Shown: positions 17,727 through 44,266 of the stretch, in pieces
How the letters are laid out: the number at the start of each line of letters is the position of its first letter
Numbering within the stretch: the first letter of the stretch is position 1
Assembly (NCBI GenBank): GCA_021307315.1
Contig: JAJSPD010000071.1
Coordinates: 1 to 64,000, forward strand
Direction of reading: 5' to 3'
Origin: Bisporella sp. PMI_857
Lineage: Eukaryota; Ascomycota; Leotiomycetes; Helotiales; Helotiaceae
Length of the DNA: 64,000 nt
Made by a program: the position numbers and the translations under genes
The notes under the pieces: generated by a model
Databases searched by the model: none
The model's input: the letters and a program-made list of their open reading frames with translations, nothing else
What the model was told of the DNA's origin: nothing

Positions 17727-19050
17727 ATGGCAACTAAAATTGACCCCTCCGTCACAGCTATGTAAGAATAATATCTACAACTGCGCTCTTTCTATGCTCA
17801 CATTTCAAGGTCTTACGGCTCTGACAAGTACTCTGATATGATCATCACCTGCAATGGCAGGAAGTTTCCCGTCCACAAGGTTATCGTCTGCACGCAAAGC
17901 AAGGTCTTTGCTGCGGCCATGGATGGCTCGTTCAAGGTAAGTTATTCTTGCTGTGCATCCTCCTGATGGCGGATTTATAGACCACACGCCAATCTCGCAT
18001 AGGAAGCTAATACTAGCCAAATTGATTTGGATGATGATACGCCGGAGGTTGTCGCCCAGATGATTCGCTGGCTTTACACTCACCATTACGAATATGGGAT
18101 AAGTTCCAAGAAGACTCTGGGAGAGATACCCACAACAGCGTCAACTAGCCCATTCATCTGGGGCAGCCCATCCACGTCCACTACCCAGCCTTCCCAAGGA
18201 TTTTCATTTCTTCGTTCCGATAATCCTCCAGTTGCAGCCCCGACCATACAAACATCCTTGTCAACCTCATCCAGCTCCACTCCCCAAAACTCCGCAGTGA
18301 ATTCGATTTTTCGTTCCAATCATCCTCCAGTGGCAGCCCCGACCATACAAACATCCTTGTCAACCTCACCCAGCTCCATTCCCCAAAACTCCGCGGTGAA
18401 TTCGATTTTTCGTTCCAATCATCCTCCAGTGGCAGCCACAGCTAAACAATCATCGTCCGAACTCAAGAGCGACACGGCCGGAACTGAAATTATTTTTCAT
18501 ACTCAGTAAGTGCCAGAGAACAAAGTCATATAAAAAAGGGTTGATGTGATTGTATTGGAATTGATTGAATTGATAAGAGAGAGAAAATGATGTGTTAAAT
18601 ACAGGAGTGTGATCCCGTGACAGTAAGGGCCTCAGAGGTTCTAGTTTGTGCTTTACTATCCATTCCTGCAAAGGCATCTCCGACTAATGTATTGGATGCT
18701 ATAGGATGTATATCATTGCCGACAAATACGATATCTCGCCGCTCAAAACACTAGCCAAGATAAAGTATGAGGCTATTGCCTCAAAGGAGTGGAATACCCC
18801 AGGGTTTTCGACAAGTCTCCAGTTAGTTTACGAAGAGACCGTCGAGACGGACCGGATGTTGAAGGACGTGGCCATTGTAATTGCTGGAAAACATGCCAAG
18901 GAACTTCTTGACCGCGGAGAGTTCAATGACCTTTGCAAGATGAACGGCAATGTTGCGTATGATGTTTTAAAAGCATCAGTCGGGATAGTCCCTGGTTCCC
19001 TTATTGTACAGCATCCAACAATGCCCTGGCTGGCCAGGCCGGCTGCGTAG
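17727..19050 (+). CDS. BTB/POZ-domain protein
   Basis: Four exons: 17727-17761, 17810-17936, 18003-18505 and 18705-19050. All introns are GT...AG and the summed length is 1011 nt, an open frame of 336 residues. The N-terminal BTB fold is clear: KYSDMIITCNGRKFPVHK, then VIVCTQSKVFAAAMDGSFK, then the acidic DLDDDTPEVVAQMIRWLYT typical of fungal BTB proteins. Exon 3 then inserts a Ser/Thr/Pro/Gln-rich linker with a 33-residue tandem repeat. Exon 4 resumes with MYIIADKYDISPLKTLAKIK, the helices that normally follow directly. BTB proteins dimerise and often serve as substrate adaptors for Cullin-3 ligases. In fungi most of this short class are uncharacterised. A RIP-damaged paralogue lies at 30341-31350. 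Confidence 0.85.
18213..18438. repeat. 99-bp in-frame tandem repeat inside the BTB gene
   Basis: The motif CGTTCC...CCTCCAGT(T/G)GCAGCC starts at 18213, 18312 and 18411, a constant period of 99 bp; two full copies and a 28-bp partial third. Each full unit encodes 33 residues containing PPVAAPTIQTSLSTS. The copies are nearly identical, so the duplication is recent. It lengthens the disordered loop between BTB core and the following helices without shifting the frame. The decayed paralogue has no such duplication. Confidence 0.9.
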
Positions 19051-23483: not shown

Positions 23484-23750
23484 CAGCATGCGTTTCTGTA
23501 GTCAAGACTCATATCAATGTAACGAGGAGGCGGTATATATCACGGAGCTACTTGTACCCCGTTGCTTAATGTTTTACGATCGCGAGTGGAACCTCATAGG
23601 CCCAGGAGATGAATGGCAAGTTCTGGATACGACAATTACATTGAGCTCATTAATCCAAGAGGTGACAGGAATCAGAGACTTAACCAACTACAATGCTTCT
23701 TGGCTTGGAATATGTCCTGGGCAGCGAATCAACGGTCTGCCTATAATGTC
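23484..23750 (+). pseudogene. Fragment of a HET-domain (NWD/HET-E-like) gene
   Basis: The + strand encodes TELLVPRCLMFYDREWNLIG, then TLSSLIQEVTGIRDL. This corresponds to the end of the HET domain in the HET-E/vegetative-incompatibility family, where LQELxAPxxxxFYxxxW is followed by a short loop and IxxITGI. The upstream HET blocks and any downstream NACHT or repeat region are absent. At about 23751 similarity to a hAT transposon begins. The fragment keeps an open frame but has no proper start and cannot make a complete protein. Confidence 0.5.
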
Positions 23751-24292
23751 AACCAGGACTCTCAATGAAATGAAAAGAAAAGGCCAAAACGCGACAGCTT
23801 TCCACTAAAGACGCTCATATAAGTAGCCTATCAACCCCTCAATAACAACACTGTCTCAGGCGCTCTGAGCCTAAGGAACCTTATACTTCGCTTAATCCAG
23901 ACCAACTCGAAATCCTTTATATCAACCTGATCTCTTTTTATAACTTTCCACTACGTCTAGTAGACTGTCCTGGTTTCCGATATCTTCTCTATTTTCTTAG
24001 AAAATATATTGATACCTGGTTATTCTGGCAATTCGATTTAGAGCAAGCAAAATCACAACTTTATAGCTCACGTACTGCTATCCACCTAGCTCTAGATCTC
24101 TGGTCTTCTCCCAATAACCTGCCAATTCTTGGGCTAATCGCTCACTATATAAGTGAGGATAACCTCTTAGAAGAATCAGTGCTTAGTGTACAGGCTATAG
24201 AAAGGGACCACTCAGGAGAGAACCTCGCGAAGTATACTTGGAAGGCCATCGATGACTATGGAATTGCTTCTAAAACTCAATTTTCTTTTTTT
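23751..24292 (+). mobile_element. hAT-family transposase remnant (copy 1)
   Basis: From about 23879 to 24290 the + strand is open for about 135 codons with hAT transposase features: LNPDQLEILYINLISF, a long aromatic helix region, and the diagnostic HLALDLWSSPNNLPILGLI, then ERDHSGENLAKY. The element is truncated: no BED zinc finger upstream and no C-terminal dimerisation domain downstream. The 5' leader at about 23745-23870 aligns with a second copy at 39756. This copy is less damaged than the second. Confidence 0.75.
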
Positions 24293-25693: not shown

Positions 25694-26581
25694 ATGTCAA
25701 CCTCTCCTCAAAGTGCCATCACGATCTTCTTCAACGTCACCCCCGACGATGGGCAATGCTTCAATCCCCCGGAAGTGTTCCTGTGGTTTATATCCATGAT
25801 TGTCATCAGCTGCACATGGTCCCTTTTATTCGGGTCGTTTGATTTCCGAAAAATATTACAGCAACTCAATATCCCCCTTTGCGCAGCCAAATCGACAAAC
25901 TTCTTCATCAGCTTGACCGGAAGTCTTGTTTGGAATATCAGTATGAGCATTCTCACGGCGTATATCTTGACGACCGGGGGTCTCGAGTCGTCTGCTCCTT
26001 TACGATATTTGCTCATGGCATGGTTCGCAAGACCTCTACCCGGAGCAGCCACGATGCTGGCCAGTTTATTCGACTACAACGCCTTTCGGGCCAACCTCCG
26101 GGAAATTATTCTCGTTGAGTCTATTTACGCTCTTCCTCCCATCTACCTCTTCGGCACAATCGCGAGCCAGTCAATAAAATTTAGCTCTCGAGCGCAGTAC
26201 TATCTTGCGCAAGACAAACATTACCACTTTGGCTTTGCTCTACTTCGCGGGGGTGCTGCGGTTGACCTGCTGGTTTGGATCATTCTCATAATTTCCCTGG
26301 TAGCAATTTCCTTTATATTGATGGAAGAGGGAATACTAGAAATGTCGGTGTACGAAGACGACATGATCACATTGAAGCTTCTGACTCTTTGCGTGCTGAG
26401 ATGTTTGGGCGGTGGCTTATTATGGGTGGGAAGTGTGCAGCTATCTCCTGCCAACTTTTGCCCGACGAAATTGATGATTAAGAAGATCACCCTTCTTTGG
26501 ACTTTTGTGCCATTAGTGGATGTTTTGTGGAGGGGGGTTTGGGGAGTTGATCAAAAATATGATGGAGGAGGGGACGATTGA
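25694..26581 (+). CDS. Polytopic membrane protein of unknown function
   Basis: 295 residues from the ATG at 25694, single exon. After an N-terminal segment with an NVT sequon there are about seven hydrophobic spans: FLWFISMIVISCTWSLLFG, a span around SLVWNISMSILTAYIL, a short one near LLMAWFARPLPGAA, one around ESIYALPPIYLFGTI, VDLLVWIILIISLVAISFIL, LLTLCVLRCLGGGLLWVG and ITLLWTFVPLVDVLW. The layout resembles other ascomycete seven-helix orphan proteins, but no family-defining motif is seen, so receptor or transporter function is not claimed. Divergent from the coiled-coil membrane protein. Confidence 0.75.
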   Translation: MSTSPQSAITIFFNVTPDDGQCFNPPEVFLWFISMIVISCTWSLLFGSFDFRKILQQLNIPLCAAKSTNFFISLTGSLVWNISMSILTAYILTTGGLESSAPLRYLLMAWFARPLPGAATMLASLFDYNAFRANLREIILVESIYALPPIYLFGTIASQSIKFSSRAQYYLAQDKHYHFGFALLRGGAAVDLLVWIILIISLVAISFILMEEGILEMSVYEDDMITLKLLTLCVLRCLGGGLLWVGSVQLSPANFCPTKLMIKKITLLWTFVPLVDVLWRGVWGVDQKYDGGGDD

Positions 26582-26691: not shown

Positions 26692-27391
26692 CTACAGGAT
26701 TCCTCCAATAACACGAATAACACAATGAACGGTAGCCTCATCCTGCAAACCATAATCCATCAAACTCCCTTTCTCGAGCTGCTTTCCCTTGTAAATGATT
26801 CTCAAATGCTCAGGATCGATACTCTGTCTCGAGGCAACCTTCTCGATGAAATTCTTCACGGGCATTCCCAGCTTGACAGGACCCACGTTCATCGAGCGAC
26901 TCTGATCCACATCCAAGACGAAGACCGTTCTCAGTTCTTTGCCTGAGAAGGCCGCCTCATCGTAGGAGGGGAGGTTTGTTGATGCTTCCATCACAGGCGT
27001 GCGGGGAGGCAGAGGCGCTTGTTTAGGTGCAGATTCAGTGAAGACGTAGCGGATGATTGCTCCCTAGATACTGTCGTCAGAGCTGTTAATCCCGAAAAAC
27101 GAAAGTAGCGTACATCTTGAATACCGCAGGCTTCGAGCGTCTGATCTGTTTTAACTAATCAGTAAAATGCTTGGGGTGTGGAGCTCAGAACTGAGACTCA
27201 CCATTAATCATCTCATTTCCTAAATGATACAACTTCAAACTCTCCCAACTACTTGCGGGCTTTCGATTCAATATATTGATGGTCCTCTTCAACCGATCTA
27301 CGGTCATCTCCTTGTACACTCCATCTAGAACCTGCTCACTGGTCCCGTCAAGCCCCAAAACGTGAACATCACTAATGGTTGCGCATTCCAT
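26692..27391 (-). CDS. Tandem ubiquitin-like-domain protein with C-terminal Gly-Gly
   Basis: Three exons on the minus strand: 27391-27202, 27145-27114 and 27063-26692. Introns are GT...AG and the frame is open for 197 residues. It has two ubiquitin-like folds. The first (about residues 5-80) runs VHVLGLDG to LYHLGNEMINDQTLEACGIQ, then RYVF. The second (about 115-197) runs VFVLDVDQ to LRIIYKGKQLEKGSLMDYGL, then ATVHCVIRVIGGIL. The last lines up with the C terminus of ubiquitin (STLHLVLRLRGG), so Gly-Gly falls exactly at the conjugation position and is followed by only Ile-Leu. Two tandem ubiquitin folds ending in Gly-Gly is the architecture of ISG15. A processed modifier is therefore possible, but a plain UBL scaffold protein is the conservative reading. 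It is divergent from an RBR ubiquitin ligase. Confidence 0.85.
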
Positions 27392-27841
27392 CTTGCTCTC
27401 TTCTTCTTGATTGAGAGTGTCAAGGGATGCAAGGTTTAAGCTACATTTAGTACTGCGACTCTTGACAACTGAATCAACTGCGACGCTTAGGACGCCTCTC
27501 CTTGTAAAAAGCCCGAGACTACCCAAGGCTCCCTTCTAGTCGCCTAAATGAGGCTTGAGGCTGCGCATCCTTGAACTCAACCTAGCCTTTATAGGGTGCC
27601 GGACGAGACCGAGAATTAAGGATGATTTTCTCGTCACATTCGGGAGCTACTGCATAAAACCGTGGCTAGATACCGTTGGTTCAAAGCGGTAGGGGTGCCA
27701 GAAGGCTCTCAATCCCCCCCCGCCGCCGCCGCCTGGATCCTAGAAATCTCGAACAATTTGTAGGACATTGTAAATTCGATCTCGTAGCCTTGGTGCTCAA
27801 ACACGGTGCTTGCCACTCGCACCAAATCATATTGCCCAGAG
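27392..27841. promoter_or_regulatory. Shared divergent promoter of the UBL and RBR genes
   Basis: 450 bp between the two start codons. It contains a C-run leading into GCC repeats at about 27714-27732. The divergent layout suggests the genes could be co-regulated. Confidence 0.5.
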
Positions 27842-29219
27842 ATGGACGACTGGACATTATGTTGGGAAGTCAATCTCTATTTTCATGATCGAATCTGGCG
27901 AGGTTTAAATTGTTATTTGTGTGGGAAAACACAATCTAGCAGTGCCTACCACTCCACTTTCTTGAGAGACGCAACAACCTGTCGAAGGGGACATACATGG
28001 AGCGACTTGCCCAAAAATATATCTTGTATTTGCAATATTTGCGACAAGGATAATTTGCTGAGGGTAACCAAGAGGGAGAAGAAATGTTTCGTTGAGGATT
28101 GCGAGTCCTTGCTGAATGTTGCGATGGAAGTTGTGGAGGGTAAGATTGATGATGAGGCTATTTTGGGGAGGTGAGTTCTGTAAAGCCTGATGAAATAGTT
28201 TTGAGCCTGTCTTGTTGAATGTCCAAACTTTCAACGAATAGCTGAATATGTATTCGATGGCTAACAATTTGTAGATATAAAGGGCTGTGGAAAAAACATC
28301 AAGTTTTCACGTGTTTGATCTGTCATTGCGAGGAGCCACTTGAAGATGCACCTTCTCGGCCTCCTACCTTCAAATGTAAGCATGATCCAAGCGTCTGCTC
28401 GGATTGTATGATAGGATTTATTTCGAATTCAATTGATAAAGGAGGGTGGCAAGAGATCCGATGCCCAGATTCCGGATGTGATCAAGTTTTGACCGGAGGA
28501 GATGTTCAAGCTTTTGCTCCTCGAGGCGCGTTTTTAAAGTAAGGATCTTTATTCAAATCCTCAAATCAAACTAACCGAAAAAGATATGAAGAGCTGATCA
28601 CTATGAAAAACCTCTCGAAGCTCGTAAACTTCCGGTGGTGTGCTGGTGATGACTGTGAATCTGGGCAGATCCCGTCTGGAAGTAAGTCAACGCTTGTTCC
28701 TATGCCCCCTCCCTAATCTATTGACATTGCAAAGGCATGAACCCGAAATGGAAGTGCCGTAAATGTTCAGCATACAACTGCTTTAATTGCAAAACGATCT
28801 ACCACGAGAAGAAAACCTGTATACAATATCAACGCTACAAGAAAGTTGACTACGAAAGTCTAGAAACTATCTTGAGAACCACGAAAGCCTGTCCCAAGCG
28901 CGGGTGTCTGAAGAGAGTGGAGAAGCACAAGAGGTGCAAGGACTCTTTTTGCGAAAGAAAAGGAGGTAAATCCGTAAACTCTTGGCTTTATGATTTGAGA
29001 GAGCTGACAGATGGACCTTCAGGTGGATGCGGAACAGAATTTTGCTGGAGTTGTAAAGTCATTTATTCCGCGGGCAACAGACTCCACCTTGCAGGCTGCC
29101 AGTGGGCGGGCGCAAATACAAGGCCAAAACCATCTGCTAGTGATCCGTTGTATGCGGATGACTGGGACAAGGATCCTGAGTATGAGGCTCCGGATGATTT
29201 GTATTCGTGGTCGGACTGA
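27842..29219 (+). CDS. RING-between-RING (RBR) E3 ubiquitin ligase
   Basis: Five exons: 27842-28170, 28275-28538, 28584-28681, 28735-28965 and 29023-29219, with GT...AG introns and a 372-residue open frame. Intron 4 is 57 nt, a multiple of three and stop-free, so retention would insert 19 residues. In order: an N-terminal cysteine-rich part (LNCYLCGKT ... CICNICDKD); RING1 (FTCLICHCEE ... CSDCMIGF ... IRCPDSGCDQ); an IBR (CAGDDCESGQ ... CRKCSAYNCFNCKTIYH); and RING2 (KACPKRGCLKRVEKHKRCKD, then GGCGTEFCWSC). The Cys in HKRC is at the position of the catalytic cysteine, so a thioester mechanism should work. RBR ligases take ubiquitin from an E2 onto this cysteine and then to the substrate. Neighbour: the tandem UBL gene. 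Confidence 0.9.
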
Positions 29220-29419: not shown

Positions 29420-29540
29420 ACGTCAGGGTCAAAGGTTGATAAGCTTTACCATTGCGCTACACGGGCAAAAAAGGCACAATAACCGAGAGCGCCGCTTAGC
29501 CAGCTTATTATACTATATATACCGGTTCGGCACCTGACAC
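29420..29540. repeat. MITE-like element, copy 1 (121 bp)
   Basis: This 121-bp segment aligns end to end without net length change with 30177-30297. Shared landmarks are GTCAG near the left end, GCTTTAC about 23 bp in, AAAAGG(C/T)ACAATA in the middle, TACTATA(T/C)ATACC, and the right end CGGCACCTGACAC. The left terminus here has decayed (ACGTCAG against GTGTCAG). It is non-coding and looks like a non-autonomous DNA transposon. Confidence 0.6.
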
Positions 29541-30176: not shown

Positions 30177-30297
30177 GTGTCAGACGCTGTAGCCGGAAAG
30201 CTTTACAACAGCACTAAGCGGACCGAAAAGGTACAATATCCGACGTCGCATGCCAAATAGCTTATCCTACTATACATACCAGTACGGCACCTGACAC
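30177..30297. repeat. MITE-like element, copy 2 (121 bp)
   Basis: Begins GTGTCAG and ends CTGACAC, a 7-bp perfect terminal inverted repeat that continues imperfectly inwards. It has the same length as copy 1, 757 bp away in the same orientation. A short direct repeat (CAGGTGTCA) precedes the left end. It has no coding capacity. Confidence 0.65.
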
Positions 30298-30340: not shown

Positions 30341-31350
30341 TTCAAACGACTATTAATATGCTAGTTAAATTGCGAGAACTTTTAGCATTAATACGTTCGT
30401 TACAGTTATATAAAGCTATTAGCTTTTACTTTACTTTTTATATTTGTATACTAAGGTTTATAACTCCGAAAAGCATTTTGACATAGTTAATACTTGTAAA
30501 AACAAAAAGTTTCGCGTTTACAAAGTTGTTATTTGCGCGCAAAGTAAAGTCTTCGCTGCAGCTATAGATGGACCCTTCAAGGTGAGTTACAGTGTGATCC
30601 TTTTTGTGGCACAAATATGGATTACAAAGCTGACTTGAGTAGGAAGGAAAAACTAGCCAAATAGATTTGGATGATAATGTATCGGAGATTGTCGCCCAGA
30701 TGATTTGTTGGCTTTATACTCACGATTACTAATATGAAGTGAGACCCAAGAAGGCAGCACTGACGGCACCACCACCCCCATCACCCCTATCCACGCCTGC
30801 TTCCAAGCCTTCTACAATATCACTAAATCTCGTTACCAAAAGTCCTCCACTTGCAACTACAGTCGAACAGCCATCTTCAGGTTGCAAGATCAGTTCTGCC
30901 GAAAACGTATTTATCTCTCACACACTGTAAAAACTACGAGTTCTCTGATTTATGCTTCCATTCTAACAAATATTTCTTTAACTAATATGTCGATCGCTAC
31001 AGGATGTATATTATTGACGACAAGTACGACTTTTGCTACTTAAAAAATTAGTCAAGATAAAGTACGAAGCTATCGCTTTGAAAAACTAGAATACACTAAG
31101 TTTTACAGCGAGTTTGCAGCCAATTTACAAAAAAAAAACTGGCAAAACGAACTAAATGTTAAAAAACGTAGCTATCGAAACTGCCGGAAAACATGCTAAA
31201 GAACTTTTCGACTGTGGCGAGTTTAAGGAACTTTTGCAAAACGAAGGGCGATATTGCATTTGATGTGTTGAAAGCATCTCTTCTTCGAGTTGGTCACGCC
31301 CGGCCTGTTGCTAAATGGGTCGTGCATCTCTGGCAACTTCAATATAATGA
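30341..31350 (+). pseudogene. RIP-damaged BTB/POZ paralogue
   Basis: This region follows the intact BTB gene (17727-19050) block by block. YNSEKHFDIVNTCKNKKFRVYK and AQSKVFAAAIDGPFK match exon 2. SQIDLDDN, then EIVAQMICWLYTHDY, match exon 3. MYIIDDKYD and AGKHAKELFDCGEF match exon 4. Lesions include loss of the start codon, a TAA where the intact gene has a Glu codon in HHYEYG, frame breaks and new stops in exon 4. In the exon 2 block I compared, about 10 of 17 differences are C-to-T or G-to-A relative to the intact gene, the pattern left by repeat-induced point mutation. Confidence 0.85.
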
Positions 31351-33803: not shown

Positions 33804-34582
33804 GCCGTCTCTGATTTCCTGCAGGAAAGTCAATTCTATGTTTCCAACAAAGGGAAACAGAACAAACCCATACAATGATAGTCAACGGAAAGTACTTTGG
33901 TTTATTTTAGGTACCGAAGCCGAGATTAGGCACAGCCAAAATAATGGAATATAGCTTATGGAGGGAAGAGAGACTAGAATGAGCTGTAGTGAGGTGAGAC
34001 GAGAAGCCGCTAAGCTGAACCCGATTGGCCAGATGAGGCTCTTTAGGCGCCATCTCACACCGACGCCACACCTATGCGACCCTTGTATTATAATCATTGT
34101 TGCGTAATATCCCGGCGGAAGGAGGGGCATACTGAGAAGGCATTATTGCAAGAGTTCTGCTCGAATTGATATAGAGTTAATCTTATGGGTTAGACGAACT
34201 AACATCGTGGAAATTCCAGTCCAAAGGTTATCGAACTAAAGGGAGCCTCTAAAAGTATGCAGTAAACACTTCGCATACGAATATCTCCTTGCTAACAGCT
34301 ATCCTGGGACTACAAGAAGAGATTCAAAAGCTTATTCTAGCTTGTAACCATAGGCATGTACTTACGACTCAGATTCTAGTATTGGGCCCAAGAGCTTGAT
34401 TGGTTAACAATCGTAACACCATCTGCCACAGCTCTGCATCGTATGCGTGGCACCGACAGTTGATTTGCAACCTCCGATCCTGAGAGCCCTACAAGACCAG
34501 CTATAGGCGTCGGAAATCTTCATATGAAACCTAATTCATTTCACTTTAATTGACTCCTCAAGACTCTAGGGCATAACTTAAT
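33804..34582. promoter_or_regulatory. Divergent region between membrane protein A and the HET gene
   Basis: 779 bp with no supported ORF. It must contain both upstream regions, so the two genes could be co-regulated. No specific site is claimed. Confidence 0.45.
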
Positions 34583-37156
34583 ATGTCACAATCAGCGGGT
34601 CCACGCCTATTTTATCCTTGCAAGGCTGTGGTGGCGTGCATAGCACATCCAGGGACATTTAGCCTCGAGAATCGCTTTTCGACAGCCCTTGATGAAGAGG
34701 AACGAAGACGGCAACTGAGAGAATTCTGCACTCCATTATTGCATGCTGTTCAGCTTCAGGAAAACCATTTCTTGGCACTTGATACTCATTTCTCGACTAT
34801 CCTTCCAAAGGCGCTCACCAACCACCCCAGCACACTTACTTCGGATACTCATAACGCGCTGCCACCAGCCGAAGAGAGCCAGCTTGTCCGAGATATTCTC
34901 CAGCGCCTCCCGAACTTACCTCAACGGTTATTCGAGTTACCAATTGTCAATACGGGAGTAAGGGGTACAATCCGGGACCGTTTGCGGGGATGGCCCGAGA
35001 AATTTGTCTTGCCAGATGCACGTCTTCAGATGGGAGAACAAGCCTTGAATGACGTAGCATATGATCAAACAACGATCCACAAACTTTATGATACACAGGA
35101 CCTGGTATGGGCAAATCTCTATGTTACGACATTCATCGACACCAATTCAGCAGTTATCGCTACAAAAGTAGCCCAGGAAGGAACAACTGCGAACCTTAAA
35201 TTCGCCCAAGAGTTTCTGCAGTACATCAATGTTCTAGCTGATCTCATTGAAGAGTTTGAGAGCCTTGACTATGGAGCCCCAATTCGGTTCACACAGTTCT
35301 CAGACGCTGTCCCATCAGTTCAAGCTTTGAGAGAAGCATTAATTCCCCAGTTCGACGAAAATCACATGCAAGGTCGTAGTATAATAAATGTTTTCTTATG
35401 GACAGCATGGCAGCGATCTGTAATGCTCTACTTTTACTATCTCCTGCAAGTTCAATTTCGGCAAGGGTACTCGCCAGAGTGGAGTACTCTGTTCGCAGTT
35501 CAAGGGATAGAAAGGCTTGCGGAACTTGATTCGGGAGATTACGGGGGTGACGGGATTGACTATATGTGCAATTGGGCATTCCAGATTCTCCGTGTGAACA
35601 GGTCTTCATTAGGCTTAGACTTTCGTAGCTTGTTATCCCGCTTTGATTCACATTTTCCAGGGCGCCCGGGTCGTTGCGAACGGGGATCAGATCTCAGCTG
35701 CCAGAGTGATCTGCCTGAATCTTGCCATCGATTCACGGATGCAGAGACAAAGTCGCAATCTAAGCATTCATCATCTTGCGATGGCCATTGCGAGAAGGTA
35801 CGATGGTCTGAGGAATCTTACCGGAGCGTCACAGGGGCAAGAGCTGTATACTTTGACAATAACAATCGCTATCTGCAATATATTCAAGCATCTCCGCGTA
35901 CAATGGCAATTTCTCATGTTTGGAGCCATGGCCAGGGTGGCCGACCAGAGCATGGTATCAACTCCTGCCTTCATCGACTGTACACTTCGTTGGCCAAAGC
36001 TTGCAACTCCAATTCGTATTGGATCGACTCTACATGTATACCAAGCGAGCCGCAACTCCGTAAAGAAGCCATCGAGACAATCAGCACAGTTTTCGCCTCA
36101 AGCAACGTTGTGTTAATCAGTGATACGGATTTGCAATCAATTGACATTTCTGCTCCAGATATCGAAACCTTGGAAACTGTACTCTCGATTCTTCTCGTAT
36201 GTGACTGGAATGTACGAGCTTGGACTATGTTGGAGGCAATACGTGGCCGTAATAATGTCAATATTTTATGCAGCAATAGCCAAATGATATCACTCACAGA
36301 TCTTTGCTGTAGGATTCTCAACGAAGGTGCAATCGACTTAGCAGTTCTCCTTGGCAGCGCTCAACACCTCCTCCCATCTGATCCTACCGCTATAATATCT
36401 GTCGAAGATGCCGGATTTCTCATCAGCCGACGACATGCGTCTCGACCTGCTGATGAGGTCGTGATATGGGGACTTCTCAATGGCCTCTCCGGTGAGAAGT
36501 CGGCTCTCAATCTGTGGAAATCACAGAGAAGTGTACGTACCGGATATCTCATGTCCAGCACGTCCCGGCTCGAGACCGAAGGATATCACTGGGCCCCAAG
36601 TGCTCCATATATCCGTCCTCAGCATCGAAGTGTCCCATTGAACATCGAAGCAGATTCCATCATCCAGCAAAAGCAAAATTATGTGGTCTGCTATCAGGCA
36701 TACGATGGCCAAGGAAGCTATATTGCAAGTATTGAAGATGGCGGTCTACGGAGTAAATGGCTGGTTCAAGACATGAATGAAAGTTTATTAACTAAGTACC
36801 GTGAAAATTTCTGTCACAAAACACCTCTGGGGACTGGGCATCCCACACAGCAGAAGTTCAATCCGGACCTTGACGAGATGATTGAAGTATATGAGCAGCC
36901 GGATACGGCGCTTGCTTGTAATACGATCGAGAGCCTCTTAGGCACAGGTCATAAAGTAAGGAGTATAAGGCCTCTAGCTGAATGCGGGACAGTGCCATAT
37001 AAGGGCGGACTGAGAAGGGGAGAGATTTACGGCATGGTTGCAGCGGTGTGCGCTTTGAAACTAGGTAGTGATAAATGGAAGTGGCAGGGAGTGTACCAAT
37101 GGTTGGAGGAATTTGATGATTACATATGGAGGATTGAGTTTATGGTAATTGAGTAA
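34583..37156 (+). CDS. Large HET-domain protein, 857 aa
   Basis: Single exon from the ATG at 34583. The HET (heterokaryon incompatibility) core lies at about residues 438-560: TMAISHVWSHGQGG, then SYWIDSTCIPSEPQLRKEAI, then VFASSNVVLISDTDLQSI, then LVCDWNVRAWTMLEAIRGR. These match the three conserved HET blocks, including the W-I-D-x-x-C-I motif and the R-x-W-T/C-L-x-E element. About 430 residues precede the core, with no domain I can name; about 300 follow. HET proteins trigger growth arrest or cell death when allelic or non-allelic partners differ after hyphal fusion. The gene is uninterrupted and looks functional. It sits between two paralogous membrane-protein genes, divergent from one and convergent with the other (115 bp between stop codons). 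Confidence 0.88.
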   Translation: MSQSAGPRLFYPCKAVVACIAHPGTFSLENRFSTALDEEERRRQLREFCTPLLHAVQLQENHFLALDTHFSTILPKALTNHPSTLTSDTHNALPPAEESQLVRDILQRLPNLPQRLFELPIVNTGVRGTIRDRLRGWPEKFVLPDARLQMGEQALNDVAYDQTTIHKLYDTQDLVWANLYVTTFIDTNSAVIATKVAQEGTTANLKFAQEFLQYINVLADLIEEFESLDYGAPIRFTQFSDAVPSVQALREALIPQFDENHMQGRSIINVFLWTAWQRSVMLYFYYLLQVQFRQGYSPEWSTLFAVQGIERLAELDSGDYGGDGIDYMCNWAFQILRVNRSSLGLDFRSLLSRFDSHFPGRPGRCERGSDLSCQSDLPESCHRFTDAETKSQSKHSSSCDGHCEKVRWSEESYRSVTGARAVYFDNNNRYLQYIQASPRTMAISHVWSHGQGGRPEHGINSCLHRLYTSLAKACNSNSYWIDSTCIPSEPQLRKEAIETISTVFASSNVVLISDTDLQSIDISAPDIETLETVLSILLVCDWNVRAWTMLEAIRGRNNVNILCSNSQMISLTDLCCRILNEGAIDLAVLLGSAQHLLPSDPTAIISVEDAGFLISRRHASRPADEVVIWGLLNGLSGEKSALNLWKSQRSVRTGYLMSSTSRLETEGYHWAPSAPYIRPQHRSVPLNIEADSIIQQKQNYVVCYQAYDGQGSYIASIEDGGLRSKWLVQDMNESLLTKYRENFCHKTPLGTGHPTQQKFNPDLDEMIEVYEQPDTALACNTIESLLGTGHKVRSIRPLAECGTVPYKGGLRRGEIYGMVAAVCALKLGSDKWKWQGVYQWLEEFDDYIWRIEFMVIE

Positions 37157-38690: not shown

Positions 38691-39755
38691 TGCTTATAAA
38701 AAGAAGGTATTTGATTGTCAAGATTAAAAGAGGAAAAGAAAGATGGAACATGTGAGGCCGATACATGTAATATGAAGTATTTACACAGCCTTGAAAGCCG
38801 TTGAATAGCCATATAGAATGTGCCTTGTCAGCAGTGATAATACGACCGGCTTGGCTGGCCAATCACTGTAACCGTGGAGGTCGGAACTCTCATTGTGCGC
38901 GGCACCAGTGCCGGGAGAAAGGCCAATGAAGGGAATTTTTCGGAGCGCAGAATAGATTTTTAGGCATCTATATTACATTACAGCAGAAGTCAACAGGGCG
39001 ATTCTGTTTTTGCCCTGCTCTTAATTGCCATTTTCTTTAGTAATCGGCAATCACGCAGCCCAATAGTCTGACCAACCCCAGAGCCTTACAGGCCAGGAGC
39101 TTAGGTGTAAGCAGTATACCCCCCCCCCCCCAAAAAAAGTCAAAGTCAAGATCAAAATCATTTTACATAGGTGCATGCAAATCAACAGATACTTTTACGA
39201 AGAGGGCACTTTTGATAACTCCCTGCTAGCGCTTTGCACAGCATTCTCATTTTTGCGGCCAAACCTTGCACCAAAATTTTGTTCTACAGACCCACGAGGC
39301 TGTCATCTATCAGGATCCTTGCTCAAATATCCTTGACGCCATTTTAACATCAAGACATTGTAGGCTATGGTTATTGATCAACTTTCCATGCTGTAGGATA
39401 AGCCAGTGCTTGTGCCCTAACCTCGTAGTAGAAATAGGCGTTGACTGGTACTACTAGCGAAATTTTTTTGGCTATATCATTGAATCCAGGCAAACGCTTG
39501 CTTTCTCGCCGTCATATGGTAAGTGCTACTCTTCTTTAGTGAAGGGAAACTACTTGCACTGCTCACCAGTTGCTAGGCTGGGGCTTAGACTACTAGAGTA
39601 TATAAGCCTCGCTTAGATAAATGTTCTGTTGCTTCTTCATCTCTTTCTTATTTAGAGAGCAAATAAATTACTATTTAGTAGACTACTACTCTTCTATGAT
39701 AAAATATGCGCCACAGAAACATTCACTTTGATGACTTCATTACCGTCGACTACTT
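38691..39755. other. Intergenic, homopolymer tract
   Basis: About 1 kb without a supported gene. A run of about a dozen C followed by seven A at about 39119-39138 is a likely site of length variation or sequencing uncertainty. Confidence 0.45.
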
Positions 39756-40790
39756 ATAATGTCAACTAGGACTCTCAATAAGAAAAGAACACCAGAAAGC
39801 GACAGAATTCTATTAAAGACGCTCATACAGGTAGCCTATTAGACCCTCAAACCGAACGCCACCTCCAATACTTTTGAGCCTAAAGATTTTTATACCTCAC
39901 TTAATCCAGACCAACTCGAAATGCTTTATATTAACTTGATTTCTTATTGTAACTTTTTGCTACAGTTGGTAGAATATCCTGCTTTTCGAGAATATTTTTC
40001 ATTTCCATAATAAATATATTGATATCTGGCTTGTTGGTTCTTAAAATACGGTTTATAGCTGGCTATTCTAGCAATTCGATTTCAAAATGGTAAGTAAATC
40101 ACAACTTTATAAAACTATCGATAACTATAGAATTGCTTCCAGACTAGATTAGCTTTAAAGAAACAGTGCATCAGGTAATAATACTTTATTAAAAAGTTTT
40201 GGTTAGTATAATTACTACATCCTACCTCTCAGAACGAGGTTATTTGTCTTAAATATAAAACTACTTTCAGGATATAATTTAAACATCAACAAATACAGTG
40301 CCAAGCCTATATTATCAATTTACTGTCGGTGCTTTCCTTTCTGTCAACAACGAAAATCTTACTGATACTCCGAAACATAATAAAGTTATAATAACCTTGG
40401 AAGAGTTACAAAAGTGAAAGAAATCAGCGCCACTTAGTAGGCTTTATATCTTAACAATTAAGATCTATTCTTATTTGCAACTCCTCCAGAAGTTTAAAGA
40501 GATATCTGGTGGGCATATGGTCCCTTGTGACAACGAGACTATCCAAGCATTTCTAAAATAGCTCTTGATATACTATCTATCCCTACAATGTCCGCATCAC
40601 CGGAGCGGCTCTTGTCTTCTTCAAAACTCACTATTTTTCACCGCCGGTGCCGACTTGATATTGACACAATTCAAACTATTGAGTGTTTGAAATCTTGGGG
40701 AAGTTTAAGGATTCGACCTATAGATGGTGACAGCAAGGTAACGATAGCGAGGTTCGCCGTGCACAGCCGTATTTATATTGCATTAACCGT
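39756..40790 (+). mobile_element. hAT-family transposon remnant (copy 2, heavily decayed)
   Basis: The 5' part (39756-40140) aligns with copy 1 at 23745-24260 but with many stops and deletions. The 3' part retains the hAT C-terminal dimerisation domain: at about 40560-40710 the frame reads LSIPTMSASPERLLSSSKLT, then HRRCRLDIDTIQTIECLKSWG, a near-textbook match to the family signature. The middle is AT-rich and not translatable. Together the two copies cover both ends of a hAT transposase, neither being complete. Confidence 0.8.
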
Positions 40791-43078: not shown

Positions 43079-43335
43079 CAGGAGTTTCCAGGAGTTTGAA
43101 GGAGTTCACAGGAGTTCGCAGAGGTTTGTAGAGGTTTGTAAAGGTTTGCAGAAAGCTGCAGAAGGTTGCAGAGGGCTGCAGAGGGCTGCAGAGGGCTGCA
43201 GAGGGCTGCAGAGGGTTGCAGAGGTTTGTAGAGGTTTGTAGAGGTTTGTAGAGGTTTGTAGAGGTTTGTAGAGGTTTGTAGAGGTTCGCAGAGGTTCGCA
43301 GAGGTTCGCAGAGGCTCGCAGAGGCTTGAAAGGTT
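43079..43335. repeat. 10-bp minisatellite (GAGGTTTGTA type)
   Basis: Roughly 25 tandem units of 10 bp. Variants are grouped: GGAGTTC/GGAGTTT units at the low end, GCAGAGGGCT in the middle, then a homogeneous run of AGAGGTTTGT, then AGAGGTTCGC. On the minus strand it translates as a repetitive Leu/Gln/Thr/Ser peptide, but there is no reason to think it is expressed. It adjoins the helicase relic. Confidence 0.9.
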
Positions 43336-44266
43336 CGTGTAGGAAGTGGGGGTTTACGGATCCACATACGACCCACCGGGTCACGTGGTCCGCACAACCC
43401 CCATTTTGTAGAATCTAGAGTAGAACCTAATACGAAAACAACAATTACCATATCCATCAAGAGCAAGAGCGTGGCCTATTATATAGAGCTACGCCCGTTG
43501 CCCCGTGGAAGGTAAGGAGGGGGCATACCAACAGATATTCTCAGTGTTGTGGCGGCCAGAGCGCGCGATGTCATACGCCGTCGCCACATGTGCCGATACC
43601 TCCTCCAATAAGCGATCAACGATCCTGGTCAGCGGCGGTGTGGTTATAGTAATCTCGGTAAAATTGTATAAAATCTGTGGCTGCGACTGTGGCTGCGCAA
43701 GATCTTGCCGGAAAAATCCGCTTCCCAACATCCTCCGAACACCTCCCCGAGCAGAGCAAAAAGGAGGCCCTGTGCCTCATAACCGTCCCGTCCCCTCAAT
43801 CCCCACCTACGGTATCTTGCCGCTCTTCAACTTTGGAAAAGCCGCATAAGATCTGAAATGGCCTCCGGCATCTCAACAACAACGGACAACTTGCCCTAGA
43901 ATCAGTCTGTAGTGTGTAGGGTTTCCAATAAATTAAAGCGTCCTTCGCGTTCTGTCTACGTTCGCCATGCAAGTGGCTGGCCAGGTTGTGCCACGATGCA
44001 GCCTCGTGGGCGGCGCCTACGATCACGACGGCTATCCTTCTCGCTATCAGTCCTTCGACGGCTGCTTCACATCCTGTCGACCTTGAATCGCAGTGCTTGC
44101 GGCAATATGCCGAACGAGTAATACGAACCGTGCTTGCTATAAGATCGCTCGCGAATCTCCAGCATGTCTCTTATACGCCAACGGGGTATGTGCTGTTCTA
44201 TCTTCTGCTATAATTATAGATCCATCATCAGTTTTGCTTGTTCCAGACCTCCCTATTGCAAGTTTT
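43336..44266. other. Intergenic, nothing supported
   Basis: About 930 bp between the minisatellite and a decayed HET gene. The low end has a near-inverted pair (GTGGGGGTTTACGG against CACAACCCCCAT, 43346-43406), possibly an element end. Short ORFs carry no domain. Confidence 0.4.

Follow-up and report, generated by a model that had tools for sequence, protein, structure and literature searches.

Two-domain ubiquitin-like modifiers are already known from vertebrates (ISG15 and FAT10) and from bacteria (BilA). ISG15 is reported to be made as a precursor, pro-ISG15 (PMC8834048), and FAT10 to end at a free diglycine (PMC6539292) and to use UBA6 as its activating enzyme, or E1 (PMC11354881). BilA is described as two consecutive ubiquitin-like (UBL) domains, with proteolysis freeing a reactive C-terminal Gly (PMC11354881). 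No fungal two-domain ubiquitin-like modifier was encountered in the open-licence literature, among the matches listed, as judged from titles and abstract openings. The present analysis deals with a small gene of the fungus Bisporella sp. PMI_857 (Helotiales, Leotiomycetes; genome of 55.6 Mb), located in bases 1–64000 of a 231,415-bp contig (hereafter the window), next to a gene for an RBR ubiquitin ligase. Our favoured reading, held at just under even confidence, is that the small gene encodes the precursor of a conjugatable modifier with two UBL domains, so far seen in Helotiales. Its layout is like that of ISG15, FAT10 and BilA; on the best reading, it belongs to none of these groups and has a separate origin.

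Splicing of the window DNA at GT..AG introns joins three minus-strand exons into the coding sequence of a 197-residue protein, whose C-terminus reads ATVHCVIRVIGGIL before the stop and closes on RVIGGIL. This model corresponds to the deposited protein B0O99DRAFT_677126 (100% identity over 100%), annotated as ‘hypothetical’. The exons below rest on the splicing and on the deposited protein, and the domain spans were derived by hand.

27202..27391, minus strand: tandem-UBL exon 1, with the start codon at 27391
27114..27145, minus strand: tandem-UBL exon 2, 32 nt
26692..27063, minus strand: tandem-UBL exon 3, holding the stop codon
27034..27391, minus strand, introns inside the span: UBL1, residues 1–84, from PF00240 (27.0 bits) and the ubiquitin alignment
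26701..26937, minus strand: UBL2, residues 117–195, from PF00240 (45.9 bits), nearer to ubiquitin than UBL1
26701..26706, minus strand: Gly194-Gly195, equivalent to ubiquitin Gly75-Gly76, invariant in 5/5 full-length members
26692..26700, minus strand: tail Ile-Leu and stop, two residues beyond Gly-Gly

The preliminary description of this stretch had proposed two ubiquitin folds in tandem, with a Gly-Gly at the conjugation site and only Ile-Leu after it. Both proposals hold, since the spliced protein ends accordingly and the Pfam ubiquitin family PF00240 matches the whole protein with 68.2 bits, in two stretches. Scored apart, each half exceeds the cut-off of 25.4 bits, UBL1 only barely. When the protein was searched against its own genome (E≤1e-3), nine of the 11 matches fell in ubiquitin loci and two in the gene itself; its nearest paralogues there are ubiquitin. 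The same searches bear on another origin, in which the protein would belong to the RENi (Rad60-Esc2-NIP45) type, with its pair of SUMO-like domains, or would be a fragment resembling Rad23. The Rad60-SLD model reaches 40.3 bits, above its own cut-off, and the Rad23 NCBIfam model 21.6 bits. However, the ubiquitin family outscores the former, the Rad23 score lies far below its cut-off of 207.3, a UBA domain is absent among the seven Pfam families listed, and the nearest paralogues are ubiquitin. Membership of either group was rejected, and such an origin looks scarcely credible.

At the structural level, the usable AlphaFold model is that of a relative, P0003, computed from a 5-sequence alignment with a mean pLDDT of 60.9, and it can be read at the domain level only. 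Both of its halves fold as ubiquitin domains, with moderate confidence. The angle between the two domains is not predicted, and the whole-length root-mean-square deviation is about 13–17 Å. The model of the window protein itself (3-sequence alignment, pLDDT 45.8) is too poor for use. The C-terminal domain of ISG15 is the top VIA match of the P0003 model, tied with others; its Foldseek matches include FAT10 (7pyv), and the tandem UBLs of chicken OASL (7sbi) are also among its structural matches.

The family of the UBL protein is narrow. Among 5.8 billion proteins, in a search that requires shared 5-residue words and may thus let remoter relatives escape, six members were found by sequence and eight by profile, the window protein being counted in both. 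The eight comprise five full-length proteins and three first-exon pieces. The closest full-length relative, at 84% identity, comes from Phialocephala subalpina, which also belongs to the Helotiales, and the remaining three stand at 54–55%. In the main text of the P. subalpina genome paper, the word ubiquitin occurs a single time. In viral contigs, no relative of either the UBL protein or the RBR protein was confirmed (0/49 and 0/58 pattern matches). The linker between the two domains, of about 32 residues in the window protein, holds an LPxY motif in four of the five full-length members, with a Cys in P. subalpina; a role for it as an Rsp5-binding motif was considered and dropped.

Comparison of the five full-length members carries most of the argument. 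A Gly-Gly stands at the position of ubiquitin residues 75–76 in all of them, that is, in the window protein and its four relatives, and the relatives end close by; loss of the Gly-Gly, or ends far beyond it, would have spoken against the proposal of the preliminary description. The residues beyond it are two to six in number and differ from one member to the next (IL in the window protein, then VL, LTL, LAL and DASGLL), the final Leu alone being common. The equivalents of the ubiquitin tail read IRVIGG, IRVLGG, LRVKGG, LRVKGG and LRVVGG. UBL2 is the best-kept part (46/80 columns invariant, compared with 30/84 in UBL1, 8/33 in the linker and 1/6 in the tail), and it is identical to ubiquitin at 28 of 66 aligned residues. 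The equivalents of ubiquitin R42, I44, G47, K48, Q49, H68, V70 and R72 are the same in all five members. Such a profile, with a fixed Gly-Gly ahead of a variable tail, is what one would expect a processed modifier to show, but it does not amount to proof.

Part of this conservation can be read differently. The I44-H68-V70 patch of ubiquitin binds ubiquitin receptors. A tandem-UBL protein that is never conjugated could act as a ubiquitin mimic, a decoy or an adaptor of the proteasome or of a ligase (E3), in the manner of OASL or of the shuttle UBLs, its Gly-Gly being an ancestral remnant retained through chance or through constraints of the fold. The patch is kept in 5/5 members, UBL2 is close enough to ubiquitin for a remnant Gly-Gly to be plausible, OASL figures among the structural matches and R74 has been lost. 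Yet the Gly-Gly stays constant while the tail varies, all five members end at most six residues past it, and R72, whose ISG15 counterpart Arg153 is reported as an E1 contact, is invariant. We consider this alternative somewhat unlikely.

The E1 contacts deserve closer attention. A cryo-electron microscopy study reports that ISG15 Trp123 and Pro130 occupy the sites of ubiquitin Arg42 and Gln49, a divergence which aids Uba7 specificity (PMC10409785). Since the fungal proteins, unlike ISG15, keep R42 and Q49, they look ubiquitin-derived and suited to Uba1, and UBL2 looks like a ubiquitin descendant that has retained the Uba1-recognition surface together with the Gly-Gly. According to the same source, ISG15 Arg153 and Arg155 lie against the E1, and mutation of E1 Glu592, near Arg155, lowers thioester transfer (PMC10409785). 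Counting from Gly157 equates these two arginines to ubiquitin R72 and R74. The first is kept in 5/5 members, and the second position varies (I, L, K, K, V); this evidence would thus cut both ways.

The E1_4HB family has a single genome match, inside a gene that also carries SCCH and FCCH domains (Uba1-type). A second Uba1-type E1, either UBA7-like or UBA6-like, was not found in the genome by an exon-by-exon search that could miss split domains. The 11 ThiF matches correspond, on our reading, to nine domains at eight places. A Pfam scan of seven pieces, from seven of these eight places, gave one piece with SCCH, FCCH and 4HB (UBA1-like), one with SCCH, one with ATG7_N, one with E2_bind (UBA3-like), one with rhodanese (UBA4-like) and two with ThiF alone; the gene names beyond the domains are our own reading. 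Because the ubiquitin residues are kept and one Uba1-type E1 was found, Uba1 is the predicted E1.

These comparisons also define where the protein stands among the described systems. The preliminary description had likened it to ISG15, and the likeness is real as far as layout goes: two tandem UBLs, a Gly-Gly closing the second, and, from what is reported of pro-ISG15, a precursor form. It is, however, shared with FAT10 and BilA, and the ubiquitin-type R42/Q49 pair does not point to ISG15 by descent or by E1. Where ISG15 has LRLRGG, the fungal tail has VIGG, VLGG, VKGG or VVGG, and where ISG15 is reported to have Trp and Pro, the fungal UBL2 keeps Arg and Gln in 5/5 members. The host is a fungus, the linker counts about 32 residues, and no UBA7-like second E1 was found. 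FAT10 has the same two UBL domains and C-terminal Gly-Gly, but the fungal proteins carry two to six residues past it in 5/5 members, in contrast with the reported free diglycine, and no counterpart of UBA6, the E1 named for FAT10, was found in the fungal genome. BilA, as described, shares the tandem UBL domains and the C-terminal Gly. Its operon contains genes for an E1, an E2 (conjugating enzyme) and a deubiquitinase, whereas the fungal neighbours are the RBR gene and an open frame at 25694–26581; no E1, E2 or deubiquitinase domain was detected in the 20 frames scanned out of the 48 of at least 130 codons in the window, nor in the neighbours of the UBL gene. With ubiquitin itself, UBL2 has in common R42, I44, G47, K48, Q49, H68, V70, R72, G75 and G76. 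It differs from polyubiquitin in the loss of K63 and R74, and UBL1 has no Gly-Gly at its end in any of the five members, hence there would be no head-to-tail processing.

Several points weigh against the modifier reading. The full-length sequences are five in all, and two of them (P0003 and P0012) are near-duplicates, 92% alike. With 58% of the UBL2 columns invariant (46/80), two fixed glycines are not improbable by themselves. The R74 position is hydrophobic in 3/5 members, a loss that touches a presumed E1 contact, the L73 position is Val in 5/5 and the K63 position is Asp in 5/5. Processing, charging, conjugation and any part played by the RBR protein also go beyond what sequence can prove. 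If the modifier reading is right, a deubiquitinase would trim the short variable tail to a bare Gly-Gly, the ubiquitin-type E1 (Uba1) would charge the trimmed modifier, and an E2 would take it over. The modifier might then be joined to target lysines, UBL1 serving as a lineage-specific recognition part. In a last step, which we hold more loosely, the neighbouring RBR protein might accept the charged modifier on its Cys298 and transfer it.

This neighbour lies on the plus strand and is transcribed divergently from the UBL gene. When its GT..AG introns are removed, five exons remain, which encode a protein of 372 residues at 27842–29219. The 450-bp gap to a divergent RBR gene, given in the preliminary description, was retrieved exactly between the two start codons.

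27392..27841, no strand: intergenic stretch of 450 bp, start codon to start codon in the gene models, presumed divergent promoter
27842..28170, plus strand: RBR exon 1, from splicing, extending the deposited protein by 94 residues
28275..28538, plus strand: RBR exon 2 (RING1), from splicing and motif search
28584..28681, plus strand: RBR exon 3 (first part of the IBR), from splicing, motif search and PF01485 (47.9 bits)
28735..28965, plus strand: RBR exon 4 (remaining IBR and start of RING2), from splicing and motif search
28935..28937, plus strand: codon for Cys298, presumed catalytic, of RING2 (HKRC-KDSFC), from motif spacing
29023..29219, plus strand: RBR exon 5 (end of RING2 and acidic C-terminus), from splicing

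The deposited RBR protein (278 residues) is truncated, as it lacks the first 94 residues of our model. The longer start is supported because this extension aligns in two relatives, P0007 (with Leu for Met1) and P0009. A custom motif search found RING1, IBR and RING2 in order, with the spacing of the catalytic Cys; the Pfam scan gave the IBR (47.9 bits), with no RING model among the families listed. Cys298 is kept in P0007 and P0009 according to the motif search, and also in P0010, where it was read by eye past an intron that had not been spliced out; the P0011 sequence does not extend over this residue. One RING1 Cys is replaced by His in P0009. The neighbour is thus read as a RING1-IBR-RING2 E3 with Cys298 as its presumed catalytic residue, which bears out the complete RBR E3 of the preliminary description. 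Searched with the RBR sequence alone, solved structures gave nothing at E≤0.01, and a three-sequence profile gave eight matches at E≤0.1, with parkin as the best (22.7 bits) and parkin chains accounting for all four matches with E<0.002. The protein resembles the RBR E3s of the parkin and ariadne class in its domain order and RING2 Cys, parkin being its best solved relative. It differs from them by its own N-terminal Cys-rich region, its acidic C-terminus and a narrow set of relatives: a search admitting candidates of 0.55–1.75 times the query length, which a mis-sized gene model could escape, brought up five proteins, counting the deposited model from the window itself.

Whether the two genes belong together is a separate question, and the role of the RBR protein as ligase of the UBL protein is a weaker proposal than the modifier itself. 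The preliminary description had paired them as modifier and ligase; the modifier half gains from the kept Gly-Gly and the predicted folds, but P. subalpina has the UBL protein, and no RBR relative from that species is named among the four found by the length-limited search, though the species is in the database, which counts against a dedicated pair. In favour of the pair, the genes are divergent neighbours, and both families are narrow and show similar tiers of identity, a close one (84% for the UBL protein, 77% for the RBR protein) and a far one at 54–55% in each. A frame upstream of the UBL relative P0005 matches the noncoding stretch 27400–27696 with 43.1 bits, compared with 30.4 bits for the best of 200 shuffles, and the match ends 146 bp short of the RBR start codon. 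This hints that the region may have been kept, though it may instead be promoter sequence belonging to the UBL gene. The part of the P0005 frame that would lie nearest the RBR gene, its first 43 residues' worth, has no counterpart in the window, and this also weighs against the pair.

Two other explanations compete for the adjacency. The cis regulation of parkin by its own UBL is a known precedent, and UBL1 or UBL2 could bind the neighbouring RBR protein in trans and restrain or activate it, the RBR protein transferring ubiquitin. The divergent arrangement across 450 bp, the parkin chains among the profile matches and the parallel identity tiers would suit such a regulator; nevertheless the missing RBR relative in P. 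subalpina argues against it, and the Gly-Gly would be superfluous, so that we regard it as unlikely. The neighbourhood might also be coincidental, the RBR protein being one of many and working with plain ubiquitin, which is compatible with the other readings. The genome contains 16 IBR matches, at 13 places besides the window RBR gene (redundant contigs possibly included), no P. subalpina protein is among the RBR relatives found, and the first 43 residues' worth of the P0005 frame, which would lie nearest the RBR gene, has no counterpart. An RBR neighbour for a given gene is, on the other hand, an event of about 0.2%, as estimated from 2 × 14 neighbours and 18,000 genes assumed from gene density, and the rest of the P0005 frame does match, maybe as UBL promoter. 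We give coincidence an even chance. The full combination, a helotialean, ubiquitin-derived, two-domain conjugated modifier with an origin apart from ISG15, FAT10 and BilA, which relies on a borrowed Uba1 and on a dedicated RBR ligase whose gene shares its promoter, is put forward as unlikely.

Some further observations concern ubiquitin-related genes elsewhere in the genome. The polyubiquitin locus and its surroundings occur on two megabase contigs, C241 and C263, which are reverse-complement identical across 4/4 stretches compared (3216, 10000, 5001 and 4999 bases); one looks like a redundant assembly contig, which would inflate gene counts. At C274:764459-764641, on the contig minus strand, a ubiquitin-like domain ending in IRGG is followed, by eye, by an AN1-like zinc finger, a fusion resembling ubiquitin joined to a ribosomal protein. 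Judged by eye, the stretch C135:204500-209500, where two partial ubiquitin-family matches fall, looks like a single gene with introns and consecutive ubiquitin-like domains. At C35:611500-615000, a ubiquitin-like match has diverged and contains an in-frame stop; on visual inspection it belongs to a decayed array and lies near a frame that resembles a HET-domain protein.

Within the window, the 295-residue open frame beside the UBL gene (25694–26581, plus strand) is hydrophobic by eye and membrane-protein-like, and the Pfam scan listed no family for it at E values up to 10. An 859-residue open frame lies at 34577–37153 on the plus strand, with a HET match of 19.2 bits, under the cut-off of 22.5. 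Dispersed and tandem repeats of 72–86% identity, some just downstream of the RBR gene, are possibly old mobile elements.

29441-29540 and 30198-30297: window repeats
17862-18977 and 30507-31278: window repeats
18169-18454: window repeat
23742-24019 and 39755-40029: window repeats
43086-43338: window repeat

If true, the fungal case would show how a new tag can branch off from ubiquitin while relying on the E1 already present. The neighbourhood is small, a putative tag and an RBR protein, so that whether the ligase is a dedicated one can be put to a direct test with two proteins and enzymes from yeast.
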